From: Flavobacteriales bacterium
GTDB taxonomy: Bacteria > Bacteroidota > Bacteroidia > Flavobacteriales > BACL11
DNA length: 38,200 nt
Assembly: GCA_014381465.1 (NCBI GenBank)
Contig: JACNLP010000018.1
Location: forward strand, 1 to 38,200
Reading direction: 5' to 3'
Below, one piece after another: positions 13,787-38,016 of the stretch. The notes beneath the pieces are model-generated. The model was not told where the DNA came from. It saw nothing but the letters and a program-made list of their open reading frames with translations, and did not search any database. A program made the translations under genes and the position numbers. Each line of letters starts with the position of its first letter. Within the stretch, counting starts at the first letter, position 1.

Positions 13787-13815
13787 TTTGGTAATTTGAA
13801 AATATGCTGATTTAT
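13784..13815 (+). repeat. Octamer repeat element A after murA
   Basis: TAATTTGG, TAATTTGA, AAATATGC and TGATTTAT follow one another with an 8-base period; the first octamer contains the murA stop codon. Similar elements lie at 16149, 18459 and 28791. Confidence 0.6.
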
Positions 13816-13822
13816 TCTACTA

Positions 13823-13890
13823 ACTAACAACCACAAACTAACAACCACAAACTAACAACCACAAACTAACAACCACAAACTAACAACCAA
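13823..13890. repeat. 14-bp tandem repeat (five units; two heptamers per unit)
   Basis: The unit ACTAACAACCACAA repeats with a period of 14 from 13823, 13837, 13851, 13865 and 13879, the last unit partial. Each unit is two related heptamers (AACTAAC and AACCACA). It lies between murA and the thioredoxin gene, directly after octamer element A. It has no spacers and no palindromes, so it is not a CRISPR array. Confidence 0.95.
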
Positions 13891-13905
13891 TAAACATTAA
13901 ATAAA

Positions 13906-28793: not shown

Positions 28794-28853
28794 TTTGATA
28801 ATATACGGATTTAATAATAACCAAAAACCAATAACTAGCAACTAATAACTATT
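28791..28853 (+). repeat. Octamer/heptamer element D after mgtE
   Basis: TAATTTGA, TAATATAC and GGATTTAA (8-base period, the first including the mgtE stop codon) are followed by the heptamers AATAACC, AAAAACC, AATAACT, AGCAACT and AATAACT. Same composition order as elements A and C. Confidence 0.55.
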
Positions 28854-30973: not shown

Positions 30974-33232
30974 TTAAAAACCTAAAGTTAGTCCTAAAAG
31001 ATAATTTCTTGTAGCTTGAGGGTAGTATCCGGCCATATTGTATCCTCTTTCACTATCTGCATTTACATAATGATTATCTAATGGGCTAGTTCCTGGAAAA
31101 GGGTCATCATTAATAAATCGGTAAACCCATGCATTATTTACATATTCATTATTAAGTAAGTTGTTTACTTGCAAACTAACCTTTGCAGTTTTGAAAATGT
31201 TACTTTTCCACTCATATGTTAATCTCAAATGATTGACTAAGTAGTCGTTTAGCATTCTGTCTTCTGATGAAGTATTGTCAATAAACTGTTCGCCAACATA
31301 CTTGCTGATGAAATCAACACTTGTGTTTTTGTCCAATTTATAGTTTAATTGTGAAGTCCAAATTACATTAGGAGAAAAAGCAATATCAGTATTTTCATGA
31401 GTAACCTCATCAACTCCCCAAGTATCCCAGTTGTCAACATGTTCAACAAAAGGAGTGACAATTTTGTTTTCACTTAAAGTCATGTTTGCTGCCCAAGTAA
31501 AGTTGTTCGTTAGCTTATAAGTTCCTTCAATCTCAATTCCTTTTCGGAATGATTCAGCAACATTTACATGTGTTCTTTCACCAACATCATTCATTTTACC
31601 TGTCATTACCAATTGGTTTTCATAGTTCATAAAATAAAGGTTTGCGCCAAAAGTCATTTTATCTCCTGTTTGCTTGTATCCAATTTCAGTGTCGTAAAGT
31701 GTTTCGTGTGTTGGGCGAGAATCAGGAGTACTTTCTGTATAATCACTTCTGTTTGGCTCTTTATTAGCTACACCAAATGAAGCATATAGTACTTGATTAT
31801 CATTAAGAGTATGGTGTAAACCAAATTTAGGATTAAAGAATTCAAGATTTATTTCTTGTTCAGCAGAGTTTCCATTAGCATCTAGTCCTTCAAAAATATA
31901 GTCAATTCTTCTTCTTTGTAAATCTAAATAAAGGTTAGTGGCATCAGAATATTTATAGTTTGCTTTTGCATAGAAATTATTGTCTGACTTTTCAGCTTTA
32001 TTCCAGTAGTATTGGTGGTTAAAATCAGCATTACTAGCGTATTGTGCCCAGATTACATTTCCGTAATGTTGCCCAGAATAACGGCTACTAGCTCCTCCAA
32101 AAATAAGATCTAAATCTCCCATTTTATGGTTAAGCGAGTAAGTAAATCCGCCAAAATCATTGTTTAACCATTTTCTTCTGATAAGGTTAGAAGTTGTAAT
32201 TGTATCGTTTCCAATAATTACATCATCCAATCCGTAAAATGATAAGGAATTTTGTCCCCAAACATAGTCGCCATTATATAATACAGAGTTGTATTCAGTT
32301 CCAACATATTGCTCGTAATATCCTTCACCATGCGTGTAGTGCCCTGCAATGTTAAAGTTTGTAACATCACTTAATTGCCTGCTGTAATGTAGTTGATAAT
32401 GCGTTTGCCCGTAATTATCCACTTCATTGTCATAGTTATAAGGATTGTAAGTTCGGTTAGAATCTAAATAATTTGAAGGTGTTCCGTACCAAGCTTGGTA
32501 GGTTCTTTCTTTTCCTGAAAATACAATTCCTTTTAGTACTGAATTATCTCCAAAGTAAGTTCCTTGTAAGTACAATGATTTTAAATCAGAAGATGCTCTA
32601 TCCATATATCCATCAGATGAAATTTTGGATAAACGCCCATCAAAAGCAAATTTACCATTCAATAGCCCTGTTCCGAACTCTACATTGTTTTTAAGAGTTG
32701 CAAAACTTCCCATGGAGTTATTTGTAGTGAAGTAAGCATCTTTTCTTAATCCGTCTGTTTTTAAGTTAACAGATGCCCCAAAAGCAGCAGCACCATTTGT
32801 TGAAGTCCCAACTCCTCTTTGAATTTGAATGTTTTCTACAGAAGAAGTAAAATCAGGCATATTTACCCACCAAACTCCTTGGCTTTCTGAATCATTCAAT
32901 GGAATGCCGTTTACGGTTACATTTATTCTTGTTGGATCCGAGCCCCTAACACGAAAACCTGTGTAACCTACTCCAGCTCCAGCATCAGAAGTAGTAACTA
33001 CTGAGGGAGTTAATGAAATTAAGTAAGGTAAGTCTTGTCCAAGATTTCCTTTTTCAATTTCAGCTTTACTAATATTGGTAAATGCAACTGGTGTTTTTTC
33101 TCCAGCTCTTAGCGCATTTACATTTACTTCAACTAACACTTTTTTTAGTGTAATAGTGTCGGTTGGCTGCCCGGCAAAACCAATAAATGGTAGAGCAAGC
33201 AGTACAGCAATGCAGTTTTTTTTGTTAAACAT
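30974..33232 (-). CDS. TonB-dependent receptor, probably for thiamine compounds
   Basis: The 752-aa outer-membrane protein has a signal peptide (about 1-21), a possible TonB box near DTITLKKVLVEV, the plug domain (about 45-160, with SVVTTSDAGAGVGYTGFRVRG and GSDPTRINVTVNGIPLNDSE), and a 22-strand-type barrel ending in a C-terminal Phe (YLLGLTLGF). It lacks the carboxypeptidase-like domain of SusC proteins. Energised uptake through TonB-ExbBD is expected. The substrate call rests on the TPP riboswitch directly upstream: thiamine-regulated TonB receptors are established in Bacteroidota. No thiamine biosynthesis gene is in the window. The nearest candidate partners are the pnuC-like transporter and kinase at 36888-38016, on the same strand but separated by about 3.6 kb. 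Confidence 0.9.
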   Translation of the reverse strand: MFNKKNCIAVLLALPFIGFAGQPTDTITLKKVLVEVNVNALRAGEKTPVAFTNISKAEIEKGNLGQDLPYLISLTPSVVTTSDAGAGVGYTGFRVRGSDPTRINVTVNGIPLNDSESQGVWWVNMPDFTSSVENIQIQRGVGTSTNGAAAFGASVNLKTDGLRKDAYFTTNNSMGSFATLKNNVEFGTGLLNGKFAFDGRLSKISSDGYMDRASSDLKSLYLQGTYFGDNSVLKGIVFSGKERTYQAWYGTPSNYLDSNRTYNPYNYDNEVDNYGQTHYQLHYSRQLSDVTNFNIAGHYTHGEGYYEQYVGTEYNSVLYNGDYVWGQNSLSFYGLDDVIIGNDTITTSNLIRRKWLNNDFGGFTYSLNHKMGDLDLIFGGASSRYSGQHYGNVIWAQYASNADFNHQYYWNKAEKSDNNFYAKANYKYSDATNLYLDLQRRRIDYIFEGLDANGNSAEQEINLEFFNPKFGLHHTLNDNQVLYASFGVANKEPNRSDYTESTPDSRPTHETLYDTEIGYKQTGDKMTFGANLYFMNYENQLVMTGKMNDVGERTHVNVAESFRKGIEIEGTYKLTNNFTWAANMTLSENKIVTPFVEHVDNWDTWGVDEVTHENTDIAFSPNVIWTSQLNYKLDKNTSVDFISKYVGEQFIDNTSSEDRMLNDYLVNHLRLTYEWKSNIFKTAKVSLQVNNLLNNEYVNNAWVYRFINDDPFPGTSPLDNHYVNADSERGYNMAGYYPQATRNYLLGLTLGF

Positions 33233-33263
33233 TTTTTTAATTTTTAGTTAACATTACACACAT

Positions 33264-33271
33264 AAAGGGGT
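33264..33271 (-). promoter_or_regulatory. Possible anti-aptamer segment of the riboswitch
   Basis: ACCCCTTT on the minus strand is the exact reverse complement of AAAGGGGT in the aptamer (about 33357-33364). It could compete with the conserved GGGGTGC strand and form the switch; no T-run follows, so control of translation is more likely than termination. Confidence 0.35.
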
Positions 33272-33295
33272 TAATGCATGTTTATTTAATGTTGA

Positions 33296-33368
33296 CTCAT
33301 TTCCCTAAAATGAATTACCACCTCAGGTTCAATGGGTATAATCTCAGCCTTTCGGCACCCCTTTTAAG
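33296..33368 (-). promoter_or_regulatory. TPP (thiamine pyrophosphate) riboswitch
   Basis: The minus strand shows the THI-element blocks in the right order and spacing: GGGGTGCC (33354-33361), GGCTGAGA, ACCC, GAACCTGAGG (33321-33330), GGTAAT and AGGGA (33302-33306). It starts just after a TATCTTTG promoter element and ends about 65 bases before the receptor's ATG. Binding of TPP would lower receptor expression when thiamine is plentiful. Confidence 0.93.
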
Positions 33369-33374
33369 ATGTGG

Positions 33375-33382
33375 CAAAGATA
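33375..33382 (-). promoter_or_regulatory. -7 element of the TonB receptor/riboswitch transcript
   Basis: TATCTTTG on the minus strand places the transcription start at about 33368, just before the aptamer. It is divergent from the element at 33420. Confidence 0.6.
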
Positions 33383-33419
33383 ATTGATTAATTCGATAAT
33401 GTAACAATTGAAAAAAATA

Positions 33420-33427
33420 TATATTTG
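33420..33427 (+). promoter_or_regulatory. -7 element of the M48 protease gene
   Basis: TATATTTG on the plus strand. A GTG lies four bases after it (33432), the same spacing as at rsgA, but that GTG is not in frame with the protease at the present repeat number. Confidence 0.5.
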
Positions 33428-33460
33428 TGCTGTGCAAAACTTTAATACAATATTAAGTAA

Positions 33461-34504
33461 GGTAATAAAACAATTCTCATTTTTGCAATACGCAATACGC
33501 AATACGCAATACGCAATACGCAAGTAATATTAGTTTTTCTTTTTAGTTCCTCCTCATCTTATTCTCAGGATTTAATTGTAGATTTAAATGGAAATGAATC
33601 TCAAGTTGAAATAATTAGCATTAGTTTTGATAAGATTAAGTACAAAAAATTAAACAATCTAAACGGACCTACATACTCTAAAAACAAGTCAAGATTATTG
33701 CTTTACCAAGAAGAAGGGAAAAAAAAGATAATTTGTAAAGATTACTTAACTAACCCTAAACCAACTCAAAATAACATTGTTCCTGTAAGTTTAAGGGAGC
33801 AGAATATAGGTTCTAATTTTGCAATAAGTTCATCAGAAAAGGAATATTTCTCAGCAATCTCTAAATCAACTATTATTGCTGGAACAGTTCATAATGAAAG
33901 GATTGATAGAATTACAGAAAAACTAATTTCCGAGTATGTTAATTTTTGCAATAAATATGGATTTTCTGGTAGAATAGAGGGTATGAATTTTCAAGTTAAT
34001 ATCTTGAATCTTGATGAGTGGAATGCATTATGTTATGCTGGAGGGCAAATATTTGTTAATTTAGGATTAATAAACGAATCAGCAAATGATGATGAGATTG
34101 CTGCTGTAATTGCACATGAAATTGCACACGCGATTTCTTGGCATACGTCTGAGAAAATATATGAGCAATATTTGGATTATTTATATCTAAATAATGCTGT
34201 AACTACAGCTTATCAATATGGAGGGACTTATTTTGGGGATAAAGTGAATAGCTTTATGTCAAACAGATTTGTATATGATTTTCTCTATCCTTTTAGTAGA
34301 GATGCGGAGACTGAAGCAGATTTGATTGGAGTTGTTATGATGGCACGAGCTGGATATAATCCATATAGTGCAATTGATGTTTGGATTGACAAACCTAGTA
34401 GGAATGAATATTATAGTACACATCCTTCTCCAGAAACCAGAGTAAATGATATATCAAATTTTATAAAGTCATTTGAATTTAAAGTATTAACTAAATATTA
34501 TTAA
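33461..34504 (+). CDS. Secreted M48-family metalloprotease; start disrupted by a heptamer repeat
   Basis: The protease frame is open from 33461 but holds no ATG, GTG or TTG before a TTG at 33698. The product clearly extends upstream of 33698: codons from 33524 read VILVFLFSSSSYSQD, the end of a signal peptide, then LIVDLNGNESQVEIISISFDKIKYKKLNNLNGPTYSKNK-like sequence shared with the next gene. The stretch before it (KTILIF) looks like the start of the same signal peptide, but is split from it by five GCAATAC repeats. The catalytic domain has AHEIAHAISWH (zinc ligands, first His codon at 34115) and the third ligand Glu in ETEADLIG, then HPSPETRVNDI. It would be a periplasmic or lipid-face peptidase. 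It may be phase-variable or broken. The next gene follows after 2 bases. Confidence 0.75.
   Translation, partial: GNKTILIFAIRNTQYAIRNTQVILVFLFSSSSSYSQDLIVDLNGNESQVEIISISFDKIKYKKLNNLNGPTYSKNKSRLLLYQEEGKKKIICKDYLTNPKPTQNNIVPVSLREQNIGSNFAISSSEKEYFSAISKSTIIAGTVHNERIDRITEKLISEYVNFCNKYGFSGRIEGMNFQVNILNLDEWNALCYAGGQIFVNLGLINESANDDEIAAVIAHEIAHAISWHTSEKIYEQYLDYLYLNNAVTTAYQYGGTYFGDKVNSFMSNRFVYDFLYPFSRDAETEADLIGVVMMARAGYNPYSAIDVWIDKPSRNEYYSTHPSPETRVNDISNFIKSFEFKVLTKYY
33485..33519. repeat. Heptamer tandem repeat (GCAATAC x5)
   Basis: Five perfect copies of GCAATAC followed by a partial GCAA. The period of 7 is not a multiple of 3, so each copy gained or lost shifts the reading frame of the M48 protease signal peptide that follows. 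Confidence 0.97.
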
Positions 34505-34506
34505 AA

Positions 34507-35259
34507 ATGAAGAAGATCTTATTACTACTACTAATGATTGTGTCAGTAAACACATTCGCACAAGATGAATTAATTTATAGAGATGGAGATACTTATGAAG
34601 TTAAGGTGATTGAAATCACAGATACAGAAGTGAAGTATAGAAAATGGAATAATTTGAATGGACCTATTTATACTGAATCTCAGTCAGAATTATTTATGCT
34701 AATTTTTGAGAATGGTGAGAAAGAAGTTTTTGAAAATGAAAATAAATCACGAAATAAAAGTAAAATTTCTACAAATGCTTTTGGTGGAGATTTTTTTAGT
34801 AGTGGCGAGTATGGAAGAAGAATGACTTCAATTAGTCCATTGCATTTAATAGGTGGTGGATTAACTACTTATCATGAGATATTTAATCAAAGGAAAACTA
34901 AAAGAAGTATAAGAATTCCTTTAATGATTTCCTTAGTTTCAGTAGATCATGATTTATATGATTATTACTATATGACAGGAGTGGATCATAAATACTACCC
35001 TACTAAACATGCAGGTAAAATAAAGGGGTATATTGGAAATTCTTTTATGGTTGGTGTAATTGTTGATGAATATATTTACTATGGTAGTAAGCGGAAAGAA
35101 ACTTGGGAAATAATTAATGAAAAATTTATTGCAGGGGTTAATTTTCATTTCACACCAAAAGTAGCGCTTGCTCTAGAAGGTGGAGTTGGTATAGGAATTG
35201 TCGGAGAAAAGTTTTATACGCCCTTTCATATAAATTTGAACTTAGGTTTCAGATATTAA
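34507..35259 (+). CDS. Barrel-like outer membrane protein with the same N-terminal domain as the M48 protease
   Basis: The 250-aa precursor has a signal peptide (KKILLLLLMIVSVNTFAQ, cut before DE). Residues about 20-75 (LIYRDGDTYEVKVIEITDTEVKYRKWNNLNGPIYTESQSELFMLIFENGEKEVF) match the corresponding region of the upstream protease. A short Lys/Asn/Ser linker leads to a C-terminal half of alternating strands ending NLNLGFRY, which looks like a small outer-membrane barrel. Starting 2 bases after the protease gene, it is surely co-transcribed. Function unknown; the shared domain suggests that both bind the same partner or surface. Confidence 0.75.
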   Translation: MKKILLLLLMIVSVNTFAQDELIYRDGDTYEVKVIEITDTEVKYRKWNNLNGPIYTESQSELFMLIFENGEKEVFENENKSRNKSKISTNAFGGDFFSSGEYGRRMTSISPLHLIGGGLTTYHEIFNQRKTKRSIRIPLMISLVSVDHDLYDYYYMTGVDHKYYPTKHAGKIKGYIGNSFMVGVIVDEYIYYGSKRKETWEIINEKFIAGVNFHFTPKVALALEGGVGIGIVGEKFYTPFHINLNLGFRY

Positions 35260-35491
35260 CTTCTGCATTATCCTAGTTGCTTCCTGAACCCTCTCATCTC
35301 CCTTCACGACAAAATAAGTGTGTCCCAAATTTTCTAATTCTTGCTTGTATATTTCAAAAAGTTCAACCCTGTCATTCGGATTTTCTCTTTGTGGGTGGGC
35401 TTCCCAAGGAATGTCTGGTTTGCATAAAAGGTAAATTCGCTTTTCTAATTTTTGTTTCTCTATTTGTTCCAAAATCCATTTATTGCTATTA
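35242..35491 (-). pseudogene. Fragment of a NadR-like kinase gene (3' end only)
   Basis: The minus strand encodes KWILEQIEKQKLEKRIYLLCKPDIPWEAHPQRENPNDRVELFEIYKQELENLGHTYFVV-like sequence, matching the last about 80 residues of the intact kinase at 36888-37427; by eye the central about 180 bases are about 90 percent identical. Homology stops abruptly at about 35491, where unrelated sequence with a stop codon follows. P-loop and core are missing, so it is non-functional. The last 15 or so residues (EATRIMQKLISET) differ from the intact copy, so this is a diverged copy or a remnant of a second kinase gene. Its end overlaps the convergent barrel gene by 18 bases. Confidence 0.8.
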
Positions 35492-35673
35492 CTCGCCTAC
35501 AGTTATAATAAGTATTATGAACTTGACACCAAAGCAATGATTGAATTAAAAAAGAATCGTTTCTTACTTAAAGTTTCTCGAATTTGTGCTTACAATCGTG
35601 AAAATATTCTCATCTTACTCATCTAGTAATTTGGATTTGTTTCTAAAAATGCTTTTTATGTAACGCAAAATTG
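35492..35673. other. Remnant sequence next to the kinase fragment
   Basis: On the plus strand an open stretch from about 35492 to a TAG at 35624-35626 encodes a Lys/Leu/Ile-rich peptide (MIELKKNRFLLKVSRIC within it). It has no convincing start and no relative I recognise; it may be the 3' end of a lost gene brought in with the rearrangement. Confidence 0.3.
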
Positions 35674-35681
35674 TATATTTG
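35674..35681 (+). promoter_or_regulatory. -7 element of the AAA_14 ATPase gene
   Basis: TATATTTG, 21 bases before the ATG at 35703. It overlaps the in-frame TTG at 35679, which therefore cannot be the start. Confidence 0.5.
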
Positions 35682-35702
35682 TTGCTTAATAAAAAGAGCA
35701 TT

Positions 35703-36896
35703 ATGAATACTTTAAGAGAAAAACACAATCTTTATATCAATAAAATTCAAACTGATTTTGTTAGAGATTACATCAATCATTTTCCTTGGGATGAGCAGCT
35801 AATTGGTATAAGAGGATCAAGAGGAGTAGGGAAAACTACTCTTTTGTTTCAGTATATAAAATCAACTTATGGTTTGTCGGAAAAAGCACTTTATATATCC
35901 TTAGATGATTTGTACTTTATTGAAAATACCCTTAGTGATTTTGCAGCTTCATTTGTGCAAAAAGGAGGTGAACATTTGTTTATAGATGAGGTGCATAAAT
36001 ATGAGAATTGGGCTATTGAAATAAAAAATATTTATGACCAATATGATGAATTAAAAGTAGTTTTTACTGGCTCATCATTATTGGAAATATTAAACTCAAA
36101 AGCCGACTTAAGCAGAAGAGCATTAGTTTTTGAAATGCAGGGATTGTCATTCCGAGAATTTTTAGCATTAAAATACGATAAACTATTTAAATCTTATGAT
36201 TTAGAGCAGCTACTAGAAGAGTCTCAGAGTATTAGTGCATTAATTAATTCAGAAATAAAACCATTACAATATTTTACTGAGTATCTGAAATCAGGTTATT
36301 ACCCCTTTTTTAAAAAGGAAAATGAATTTTATTATCAAAGATTAAGGGAAGTTGTTAGTTTAATTATAGAAATTGAATTACCTACTCAAAGGAAAATTGC
36401 AGTTTCAAAAATTAAAAAAGTGAAGCAATTGCTTTTTATCATTGCGCAATCAGTACCTTTTAAGCCAAATATTAAAAAATTATCCGAAAGAATTGGAATT
36501 ACTAGAAACACGCTTGTGGAATATCTTAATAGTTTAACGGATGCAAATTTAATACAGGATTTGAATAAAGATACTTTTGGAATAAGTCTGTTGCAAAAGC
36601 CAGATAAAATTTATTTAGAAAACACTAATCTTTCTTATGCGCTTTCATTGGATGTCCCCAATAAAGGGAACATTAGAGAGACTTTTTTTTACAATCAATT
36701 GAAGAAAAATAATTCGCTTACATACCCAGAAAAAGGTGATTTTTTAGTTAATAATAAATATTTATTTGAGGTTGGTGGTAGGAGTAAAACAGCCAAGCAA
36801 ATATCAGGGGTTAAAAATTCGTATTTAGCCTTAGATGATATAGAGTTTTCAGATGGAAAAAAGATCCCTTTATGGCTTTTTGGATTTCTATATTAG
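35703..36896 (+). CDS. AAA_14/DUF4143 family ATPase
   Basis: From the ATG at 35703 the product has 397 aa. The P-loop GSRGVGKT is at 38-45, Walker B HLFIDEVHKYENW at about 92-104, sensor 1 VVFTGSS at about 119-125. After a winged-helix-like part (LSERIGITRNTLVEYLNSL) the C-terminal region holds FLVNNKYLFEVGGRSKTAKQISG, the DUF4143 segment that resembles a nuclease-like fold. These ATPases are widespread, scattered genes with no settled function, often found in variable regions. The gene lies between a kinase-gene fragment and the intact kinase gene, and its end overlaps the latter by 9 bases; it looks inserted. Base composition is like its neighbours. Confidence 0.88.
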   Translation: MNTLREKHNLYINKIQTDFVRDYINHFPWDEQLIGIRGSRGVGKTTLLFQYIKSTYGLSEKALYISLDDLYFIENTLSDFAASFVQKGGEHLFIDEVHKYENWAIEIKNIYDQYDELKVVFTGSSLLEILNSKADLSRRALVFEMQGLSFREFLALKYDKLFKSYDLEQLLEESQSISALINSEIKPLQYFTEYLKSGYYPFFKKENEFYYQRLREVVSLIIEIELPTQRKIAVSKIKKVKQLLFIIAQSVPFKPNIKKLSERIGITRNTLVEYLNSLTDANLIQDLNKDTFGISLLQKPDKIYLENTNLSYALSLDVPNKGNIRETFFYNQLKKNNSLTYPEKGDFLVNNKYLFEVGGRSKTAKQISGVKNSYLALDDIEFSDGKKIPLWLFGFLY

Positions 36897-37427
36897 ATTT
36901 AAGATTTCTGAAATACTTTTCTCAACTCTACTCTCTCCCTCTACAACAAAATAAGTGTGCCCTAAATTTTCTAACTCTTGCTTGTGTATTTCAAAAAGTT
37001 CCTCCCTGTCGTTTGGATTTTCTCTTTGTGGGTCTGCTTCCCAAGGAATATCTGGTTTACATAAAAGGTAAATTCGCTTTTCTGATTTTTGTTTTTCTAT
37101 TTGCTCAATAATCCATTTATCGCAATTACCGTATTTGTAATTACTCCAAATTTTAATGGTGATAAGGTCAGTATCGTGTAGGGATAGTTTGTGGTTTGTG
37201 GTTTGTGGTTTGTGGTTTCCACCTTCTGACTCCTGTATTCTGTATTCTGACTTAAATTGTCCTTCTGCAATTTTAATTAAATCATTTTGATTGTATTCTC
37301 TTTCTAAATTAGTTAGAAATTCCCTTGCATACTCTTTGCTAAAAGGAATATTAAAGTGCTCGGAAAGTGCTTTGCAGACTGTTGTTTTTCCGCTACTTTC
37401 AGGGCCTGTTGCAATAATTTTAAGCAT
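36888..37427 (-). CDS. NadR-like nucleoside kinase (AAA_28 ATPase)
   Basis: The 179-aa protein from the ATG at 37425-37427 has the P-loop GPESSGKT (8-15), KEYAREFL and DTDLITIKIWSNYKYG, the pattern of the ribosylnicotinamide-kinase part of NadR. Its start overlaps the end of the pnuC-like gene by 8 bases (ATGCTTAA), so the pair is translationally coupled. The likely job is to trap an imported nucleoside-like vitamin by phosphorylation: nicotinamide riboside by family, or thiamine by the nearby TPP-controlled receptor. Between GQ and DTDL it holds about ten extra residues (ESEGGNHKPQTTNHK) encoded by heptamer repeats. The open frame extends to a TTG at 37472, which is unlikely because it lies deep inside the upstream gene. 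Confidence 0.85.
   Translation of the reverse strand: MLKIIATGPESSGKTTVCKALSEHFNIPFSKEYAREFLTNLEREYNQNDLIKIAEGQFKSEYRIQESEGGNHKPQTTNHKLSLHDTDLITIKIWSNYKYGNCDKWIIEQIEKQKSEKRIYLLCKPDIPWEADPQRENPNDREELFEIHKQELENLGHTYFVVEGESRVEKSISEILNLI
37187..37256. repeat. Heptamer repeat inside the kinase gene
   Basis: GTTTGTG occurs four times in tandem (37187-37214), followed by degenerate heptamers including two TGTATTC copies (about 37233-37247). On the coding strand this reads as CACAAAC repeats, matching the AACCACA heptamers after murA. Confidence 0.85.
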
Positions 37428-38016
37428 CTTTTGGCATAATTTTAAGCCATCTGAAATAACCAAAAATGGCAATGATAGTATAAGCTAAAAATAGGAGGGA
37501 GGTAAGGTGTAAGTCCCTGCTGAAATAAAGGTAAACCGATACAGCATCAATCACTATCCAATAGAGCCAATTTCCTAGTATCTTTTTAGCCACCATAAAA
37601 GTAGCAAAAATGGAAAATACGGTAGTAAAGGAGTCAACTAAAGGCATGGCTGCATTAGTGTAAGTGGTAAAATAAAAGCCCATTAAAAATGTAAGTATTG
37701 CACCTATTCCTAAGATGAGTAGGTGTTTGCTGCTACTCCATTCACTTATCTGTAGTTCTTGCTCTTTTTTATTCCAATGATGATAGCCGTATCCTGCCAT
37801 AAAAAGGTAAAAAACTTGCAATCCTGTTTCTGGGTAGAGTTGAGCGGTAAAACAAATATAAATATAAAGAATAACACTAATTGCTGCCGCTCCCCAGCAC
37901 CATATATTTTGTTTTGCAGCCAAAATCACATAGATAACAGAAAACAATACTGCAAAACTCTCGATAAAACTCCAGTTAAAATTGAGGTGACTAAAAAATT
38001 GAATTATTTCGTGCAT
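37420..38016 (-). CDS. PnuC-family vitamin transporter
   Basis: The 198-aa inner-membrane protein has seven hydrophobic helices: about 18-33, 38-56, 62-80, 98-116, 122-142, 146-162 and 168-188. The pattern WCWGAAAISVILYIYICF, GLQVFYLFMAGYGYHHWNK and NWLYWIVIDAVSVYLYF is that of PnuC/PnuT facilitators, which take up nicotinamide riboside or thiamine and rely on a cytoplasmic kinase to trap it. The kinase overlaps it downstream. No TPP riboswitch is seen upstream, so NR and thiamine both remain possible. A TATTTTTG element lies about 11 bases before the ATG. Confidence 0.9.
   Translation of the reverse strand: MHEIIQFFSHLNFNWSFIESFAVLFSVIYVILAAKQNIWCWGAAAISVILYIYICFTAQLYPETGLQVFYLFMAGYGYHHWNKKEQELQISEWSSSKHLLILGIGAILTFLMGFYFTTYTNAAMPLVDSFTTVFSIFATFMVAKKILGNWLYWIVIDAVSVYLYFSRDLHLTSLLFLAYTIIAIFGYFRWLKIMPKDA

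Follow-up and report, generated by a model that had tools for sequence, protein, structure and literature searches.

What a tandem array of seven-nucleotide units is doing in frame inside a conserved metabolic enzyme, and how it came to be there, is the question raised by an AAA_28 kinase gene from a Flavobacteriales genome of 1,976,464 bases in 85 contigs. The window analysed here is the entire 38,200-bp contig (G000:C6) carrying that gene. The nearest named relatives of the source genome are MAGs of uncultured Flavobacteriales, presumably marine, judging from their isolate names. We consider it quite probable that the array belongs to a dispersed class of heptamer arrays, all fitting the template ACYANNA, that it is a coding copy situated in a permissive loop of the kinase, and that it is a tolerated filler which brings a risk of frameshift and amounts to no demonstrated switch.

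The heptamer array and the kinase loop

The kinase gene and the parts of its array are located as follows.

36888 to 37427, minus strand: AAA_28 P-loop kinase gene (179 aa, PF13521) that carries the array; a predicted thiamine kinase
37217 to 37251, minus strand: block 1 of the array, GTCAGAA TACAGAA TACAGGA GTCAGAA GGTGGAA (sequence; lag-7 test)
37189 to 37216, minus strand: block 2 of the array, four perfect ACCACAA units of the ACYANNA class (TRF; pattern search)
37182 to 37188, minus strand: ACTATCC directly after the array, in line with the fourth unit of the relatives' loops

Read on the coding (minus) strand from 37251 to 37189, the two blocks form nine full tandem heptamers (63 bp). 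The first four units of block 1 match NNCAGRA, for which we call it the CAGRA block, and the very first GTCAGAA is native sequence that is also present in the array-free kinase of a related genome, G012. TRF reports GTTTGTG x4.6 at 37187-37218 and CTGTATT x2.4 at 37233-37249. Over the 70 bp from 37187 to 37256, 46 of 63 positions are identical at lag 7, and no other region of the window has a stronger period 7; 20,000 shuffles average 20.3 identical positions and never exceed 33. The tandem in-frame array of the original prediction is thus upheld, whereas its count of about ten heptamers is not, there being nine full units of which the first is native. When the loop was recoded synonymously 5000 times, the observed lag-7 identity was never attained; the periodicity of the array therefore exceeds what the encoded protein forces. 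An assembly artefact was considered and judged improbable, as the 63-bp array is shorter than an ordinary read and the array class occurs on many contigs.

The encoded protein scores 99.1 bits (E 4.1e-28) against PF13521, far above the cut-off of 27, and its earlier assignment as an AAA_28 kinase is confirmed. Its loop from GQ to DTDL comprises 27 residues, mostly encoded by the array, and is between 10 and 16 residues long in 28 other aligned kinases (10 in 12 of the 28). The loop is indeed unusually long, as had been claimed, although by 11 to 17 residues relative to these kinases rather than by about ten. An AlphaFold prediction built on 41 aligned kinases has a mean pLDDT of 91.4, with the two blocks of residues 61-80 at 67 and 54 and the remaining blocks at 87 or more, and puts the array loop between a helix (47-63) and a strand (81-84). 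The original suggestion of modelling the loop in the NadR kinase fold was followed in this model, in which the loop is predicted to be disordered on an intact NadR-like fold. The top structural match is the NadR kinase 6gyf (Z 20.8, 2.0 A, 169 residues), with 1lw7 at Z 17.7. Taken together, the ribosylnicotinamide kinase domains of NadR (6gyf/6gye, 8x7f and 1lw7) match with Z 17.7-20.8 over 157-169 residues and share the Walker A and the DTD-type motif; in contrast to NadR, the kinase here has no adenylyltransferase domain, shows 22-25% identity, lies in a thiamine-type context and carries the loop insert. Consistent with the missing adenylyltransferase domain, the match to the NadR model TIGR01526 covers model positions 168-323 of 325 and reaches 68.9 bits, below the cut-off of 341.15. 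As to NR-binding residues, the portion of the structure source (PMC7221760) consulted presents the canonical kinase site without substrate.

Outside the loop, dN/dS between this kinase and that of G012 is 0.095, indicating a kinase under constraint. The frame is at stake in any change of copy number: in silico, loss of 1, 2 or 4 units or gain of 1, 2, 4 or 5 units gives products of 81-121 residues, and steps of three heptamers preserve the frame. The expectation that a copy change would shift the frame and cut off the kinase thus holds for changes that are not multiples of three and fails for steps of three.

The same loop in related kinases

Across a wider set of 65 kinases with a measurable loop (the window's own included, 15 more without the anchor being left out), loop length ranges from 10 to 39 residues, the values for L091 and L107 being overstated because the anchor fell too early. 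In the distant kinase L094, a loop of 39 residues shows no period 7. Six close relatives (L003, L005, L006, L007, L009 and L074) have 16 residues in the corresponding loop, and its 3' flank is similar; the 16-residue loops of L029, L030, L108, L116, L119 and L126, which are without the heptamer register and the flank, were excluded from these six. The extra 28 nt of the six relatives fall in ACYANNA register, as in L009 (ACTAACA ACTAACA ACAAACA ACTATCT), and the ACTATCC at 37182 to 37188 aligns with unit four of these loops (ACTATCC or ACTATCT in L003, L009 and L074). The ACYANNA score exceeds that of synonymous recodings in L003 (p 0.0024), L009 (p 0.0024) and L074 (p 0.0074), three tests that are not independent since the loops are homologous; it is marginal in L006 (p 0.049) and not above synonymous recoding in L005 and L007. 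The non-significant relatives look as expected if the array has decayed in them. In all six loops the third unit alone has an in-frame TAA/TAG position, and this position reads AAG, AAA, CAA or CAG; L003, L009, L074 and L006 retain an off-frame TAA or TAG in both units before the third. To judge from these alignments, loss of the in-frame stop is the minimum for gene survival, and it points to changes that the frame imposed on the array.

The same-site inserts of the six relatives and the long loop of L094 indicate that this is an old and permissive site, at which heptamer arrays appear to come and go. The proviso attached to the original prediction, that relatives might reveal an old ordinary loop, is therefore partly borne out: none of the 28 aligned kinases has a 27-residue loop, and the same-site insert of the six relatives is heptameric in three, marginally so in one and not in two. 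Two further kinase matches are incomplete or perhaps broken. In a same-genus genome the contig begins inside the kinase (L028 / L083 start, G001:C60:1), about 50 nt downstream of the array position, and the 5' half of the gene was not found elsewhere in the G001 genome. The match at G004:C3:155388-155882 contains four stop codons (one TAG and three TAA), and the gene may be broken.

The closest kin of the window kinase is that of G012 (tree support 100/99), whose loop has 10 residues. The two agree at all of the 12 nt that immediately precede the array and at 30/30 nt in codons 5-15 after DTD. The flank between is mosaic: in the six codons before DTD, the window kinase agrees with L003 at 15/18 nt and with G012 at 8/18. 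The window loop is 51 nt longer than that of G012 and 33 nt longer than that of L003. It looks like an exchanged patch, and either the window kinase would have gained it from a long-loop kinase, or G012 would have gained a short one. The loop types were also tried as clades of the kinase tree, which is not supported: all groups together require 6 changes, where shuffling gives a mean of 6.4, on a tree whose inner branches are mostly weakly supported.

We propose that an older 28-nt ACYANNA array occupied the same loop site in the relatives, and that a G012-like kinase received this patch or kept a patch that G012 lost, the direction of exchange being tentative. The array would then have been homogenised and lengthened to give ACCACAA x4 plus the CAGRA block, probably via slippage or unequal exchange in seven-nucleotide steps. 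A junction other than a complete heptamer would keep its net length a multiple of three, and purifying selection on the kinase would retain frame-preserving, stop-free versions of the array alone.

A dispersed class of heptamer arrays

The window contains three further heptamer arrays, two of which belong to the ACYANNA class.

13823 to 13892, plus strand: intergenic ACYANNA array of ten units, 13 nt ahead of the start codon of a thioredoxin-like gene
28820 to 28847, plus strand: intergenic ACYANNA array of four units, upstream of a 2-hydroxyacid dehydrogenase gene
33485 to 33523, no strand assigned: GCAATAC x5.6 array outside the ACYANNA class (TRF)

ACCACAA is one of many heptamers fitting ACYANNA, others being ACTAACA, ACTAGTA, ACTAATA and ACCAATA. 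In the array at 13823-13892 it alternates with ACTAACA and is a rotation of CACAAAC, the unit that had been noted as common to the kinase and this array; that correspondence is correct. The genes on either side of it are 119 nt apart here and abut without a gap in G014; those around the array at 28820-28847 are 64 nt apart here and likewise abut in G024. Both arrays are preceded by similar AT-rich leaders (13790-13822 and 28794-28819), maybe further decayed heptamers.

Three consecutive ACYANNA units have 70 matches at 24 places in the source genome (counted from rows), and the reversed pattern has none. Among 52 family genomes, 7 contain four consecutive units, the source genome having 46 matches and no other genome more than 4 (reversed pattern 0/52), and exact ACCACAA x3 occurs in one of the 52, namely the source genome. 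At the level of the order, 48 of 196 genomes contain four units and 36 (counted from rows) contain the reversed pattern, so that the template appears only modestly specific among heptamer arrays there. In 594,884 sampled bases of the source genome we counted 12 ACYANNA arrays of at least three units, the kinase copy being the sole coding one; the other 11 are intergenic in that they overlap no ORF of at least 90 codons. Eight of these 11 lie in sense orientation upstream of a gene start, two are antisense and one lies between convergent genes (one-sided p 0.055 for 8/10). Among arrays of at least four exact copies in a 314-kb sample of the source genome, three have period 7, one has period 14 and none has period 5, 6 or 8-13; three of the four sit in the window. 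A 360-kb sample of G012 contains no array of at least four exact copies at periods 4-15. About 1.48 Mb sampled from five relatives, G012 among them, contain no degenerate period-7 array, and the exact ones there amount to two short runs in G014. With period-7 arrays nearly missing from these samples, array growth in ancestors is an assumption of the proposed course. A perfect AACACGC x8 array outside the ACYANNA class lies at L043:9309-9364.

The CAGRA block was also tried as a member of this class and rejected, the three-unit NNCAGRA pattern occurring nowhere else in the source genome; half of the kinase array is therefore not accounted for by the ACYANNA class. As a class of its own the block is weak, the four-unit pattern occurring in 8 of 196 order genomes against 4 for the reversed control. 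A 29-nt stretch around it (37224-37252) is identical at G085:C145:2632-2660, in another family of the same order, which may be coincidence given so small a vocabulary of units. No match to the 26-nt block was found in a scan of viral contigs, and a plasmid search with the array returned short matches to 21 records, Nostoc included, none of which covers 80% of the query. The five unit types of the kinase array (ACCACAA, GTCAGAA, TACAGAA, TACAGGA and GGTGGAA) are stop-free in every frame as tandems, a property of 14 of the 32 possible ACYANNA units, and none of the 11 sampled intergenic arrays is open in all three sense frames.

The array is a known kind of repeat in an unusual place. Heptanucleotides were the commonest category in most genomes in a 2007 survey (Mrazek 2007, as cited in PMC4679880), tandem heptanucleotides of Calothrix are cited in PMC4692102, and the latter, in the part consulted, states that no detailed literature on heptameric repeats existed as of 2015. 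To the extent described in these two sources, bacterial heptanucleotide repeats resemble the arrays reported here in having an exact 7-base unit and many dispersed arrays, mostly intergenic (here in the sample), and in being patchy among relatives with no mobile element visible; in contrast, the kinase copy lies inside a conserved metabolic enzyme, in frame and with all units stop-free. Heptamer repeats of Bacteroidetes and Cyanobacteria often precede start codons, and some lie in ORFs, mostly at protein ends (MacGregor 2015, PMC4679880, as excerpted). The TAACTGA repeats of Beggiatoaceae, Cyanobacteria and some Bacteroidetes, as they are presented there, likewise include arrays upstream of start codons, have other heptamers mixed in within Bacteroidetes and place a few copies in ORFs, chiefly towards the ends of the proteins. 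They differ in that the units here are ACYANNA (ACCACAA, ACTAACA), often mixed within one array, and in that the coding copy is mid-protein, in a loop; none of the five unit types of the kinase array is TAACTGA or a rotation of it.

Three other explanations have to be weighed against that of a tolerated filler, which presumes the absence of a function. A selected long polar linker, of which the DNA repeat is a by-product or a matter of chance, would make this an ordinary hydrophilic loop. Such a loop would agree with the predicted disorder, with the 10 to 39 residues seen at the site in 65 kinases and with the existence of a long loop without period 7 (L094), but the lag-7 identity was reached by 0/5000 synonymous recodings and 0/20,000 shuffles, and ACCACAA recurs in the intergenic arrays of the source genome; we regard this explanation as unlikely. 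The heptamer-coded segment might instead bind a partner or tune the kinase, with the array supplying heritable variation, which would suit both the arrays at the same site in several lineages and the independence of loop types from the kinase tree. Its sequence, however, is not conserved between loop types, its pLDDT is low and the closest kin, G012, has a 10-residue loop. Moreover, from the general topology of P-loop kinases the segment, which precedes the strand ending in DTD, is expected at the far end of the sheet, on the face remote from the active site. A functional loop therefore seems quite unlikely to us.

Heptanucleotide repeats drive phase variation in other bacteria, HMW1A of Haemophilus influenzae reportedly being an example, and slippage of the ACCACAA units could in the same way reversibly toggle the kinase and with it vitamin salvage. 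The truncation in silico by copy changes other than multiples of three is what such a contingency locus would require, and the start of the G001 contig within the kinase, some 50 nt past where the array would lie, could reflect variation there. On the other hand, no more than four units are perfect, the 16-residue loop is kept in six relatives, some of them with decayed repeats, and the dN/dS of 0.095 denotes constraint. The product is a salvage enzyme and no surface antigen, and losing it is expected to be costly where, as in this family, neither ThiE nor thiamine pyrophosphokinase (TPK) was found (see below). The probable role of the kinase gene further lowers the chance of a switch, which we regard as very unlikely at this locus. 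With the array taken as a tolerated filler, the locus illustrates that dispersed, usually intergenic heptamer arrays can persist in a conserved enzyme, given a permissive loop, stop-free units and a change in the unit with the in-frame stop. The series at the same site, from no array through a degenerate array to a fresh one, lets the birth and death of such arrays be asked about.

Genomic context and a candidate thiamine kinase

The neighbours of the kinase gene that bear on its substrate are listed below.

37420 to 38016, minus strand: Pnu-family vitamin transporter gene, overlapping the kinase start (PF04973, E 1.3e-54)
33285 to 33372, minus strand: TPP riboswitch upstream of the TonB receptor gene (RF00059, 41.4 bits, gathering score 54.3, E 8.9e-6)
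30974 to 33232, minus strand: TonB-dependent receptor gene, a predicted thiamine receptor (PF07715, E 2e-11; synteny)

The arrangement recurs among the relatives. A Pnu homologue is present in 34 of 57 kinase loci and immediately precedes the kinase in 32 (all except L086 and L094). A TonB-receptor homologue is present in 29 of the 57, downstream of the kinase except in L119. All 20 loci taken for the riboswitch search, namely the window and 19 of the 29 kinase-TonB loci (eight close relatives, L085 and ten distant ones), have a TPP riboswitch match between the kinase and the TonB gene, 5 of them at or above the gathering score and 15, the window's included, below it with E values of 9e-7 to 0.013. 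The location of the riboswitch suits it to regulating the TonB gene. It was found in none of ten loci without a TonB match, five of which have a Pnu gene, and the context is therefore silent on thiamine for those kinases.

ThiL is over cut-off in 19 of 23 family genomes; by the same measure ThiE is found in none of the 23 (G021 has two sub-threshold matches), and TPK in none. The AAA_28 kinase has a match in 21 of the 23 (not in G003 and G016), three of these matches being incomplete or broken (stop codons in G004, two pieces in G006 and the contig end in G001). The substrate of ThiL is thiamine monophosphate, which in the absence of ThiE should be supplied by a thiamine kinase. Among 14 genomes from other families within this order, all 8 without ThiE have the kinase, as does 1 of the 6 with ThiE (Fisher p 0.003, a value that ignores phylogeny, several of the 14 being incomplete MAGs). 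The exception, G038, has its kinase match in a 738-codon frame and possesses a pyrophosphokinase.

The riboswitch, TonB and Pnu context and the presence of ThiL without ThiE and TPK lead us to predict that the kinase phosphorylates thiamine. As a candidate thiamine kinase it would act on vitamin B1 more probably than on nicotinamide riboside; the label of vitamin kinase given in the original prediction fits, with the genomic context pointing to thiamine rather than nicotinamide riboside. Two observations on the sequences speak for nicotinamide riboside and would count against thiamine: the transporter passes the nicotinamide riboside transporter PnuC model TIGR01528 (85.1 bits, cut-off 42.45), and the best NCBIfam matches of the kinase, although below cut-off, are NadR models. 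A thiamine kinase in organisms where neither ThiE nor TPK was found would, if true, supply a missing pathway step of B1-auxotrophic Bacteroidota. More tentatively, and with some doubt on our part, we suggest that a NadR-like (AAA_28) thiamine kinase bridges uptake and ThiL in these bacteria, and that its loop has been repeatedly rebuilt from dispersed heptamer arrays passing between lineages as a small recombination patch. No AAA_28 thiamine kinase is named in the titles and abstract openings of the open-licence papers listed by literature searches. The nearest known systems are the OMthi-pnuT-tnr3 thiamine uptake operons with TPP riboswitches in gut Bacteroidetes (PMC5613172), which, as outlined in that source, share with the present locus a TonB receptor, a Pnu-type transporter, a TPP riboswitch and a thiamine-activating enzyme (predicted here). 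They differ in that the AAA_28 kinase here replaces tnr3 and the riboswitch lies between the kinase and the TonB gene.

The distance from the kinase to the TonB start is 173-202 nt in six relatives, 854 nt in G012 and 3.65 kb here (33233-36887). Two features of this insert could be placed precisely.

35281 to 35492, minus strand: relic of the kinase 3' end, 87% identical to 36918-37129
35679 to 36896: AAA_14/DUF4143 ATPase gene

Besides this relic and the ATPase gene, the insert contains an M48 peptidase and an ORF that has no Pfam or NCBIfam match.
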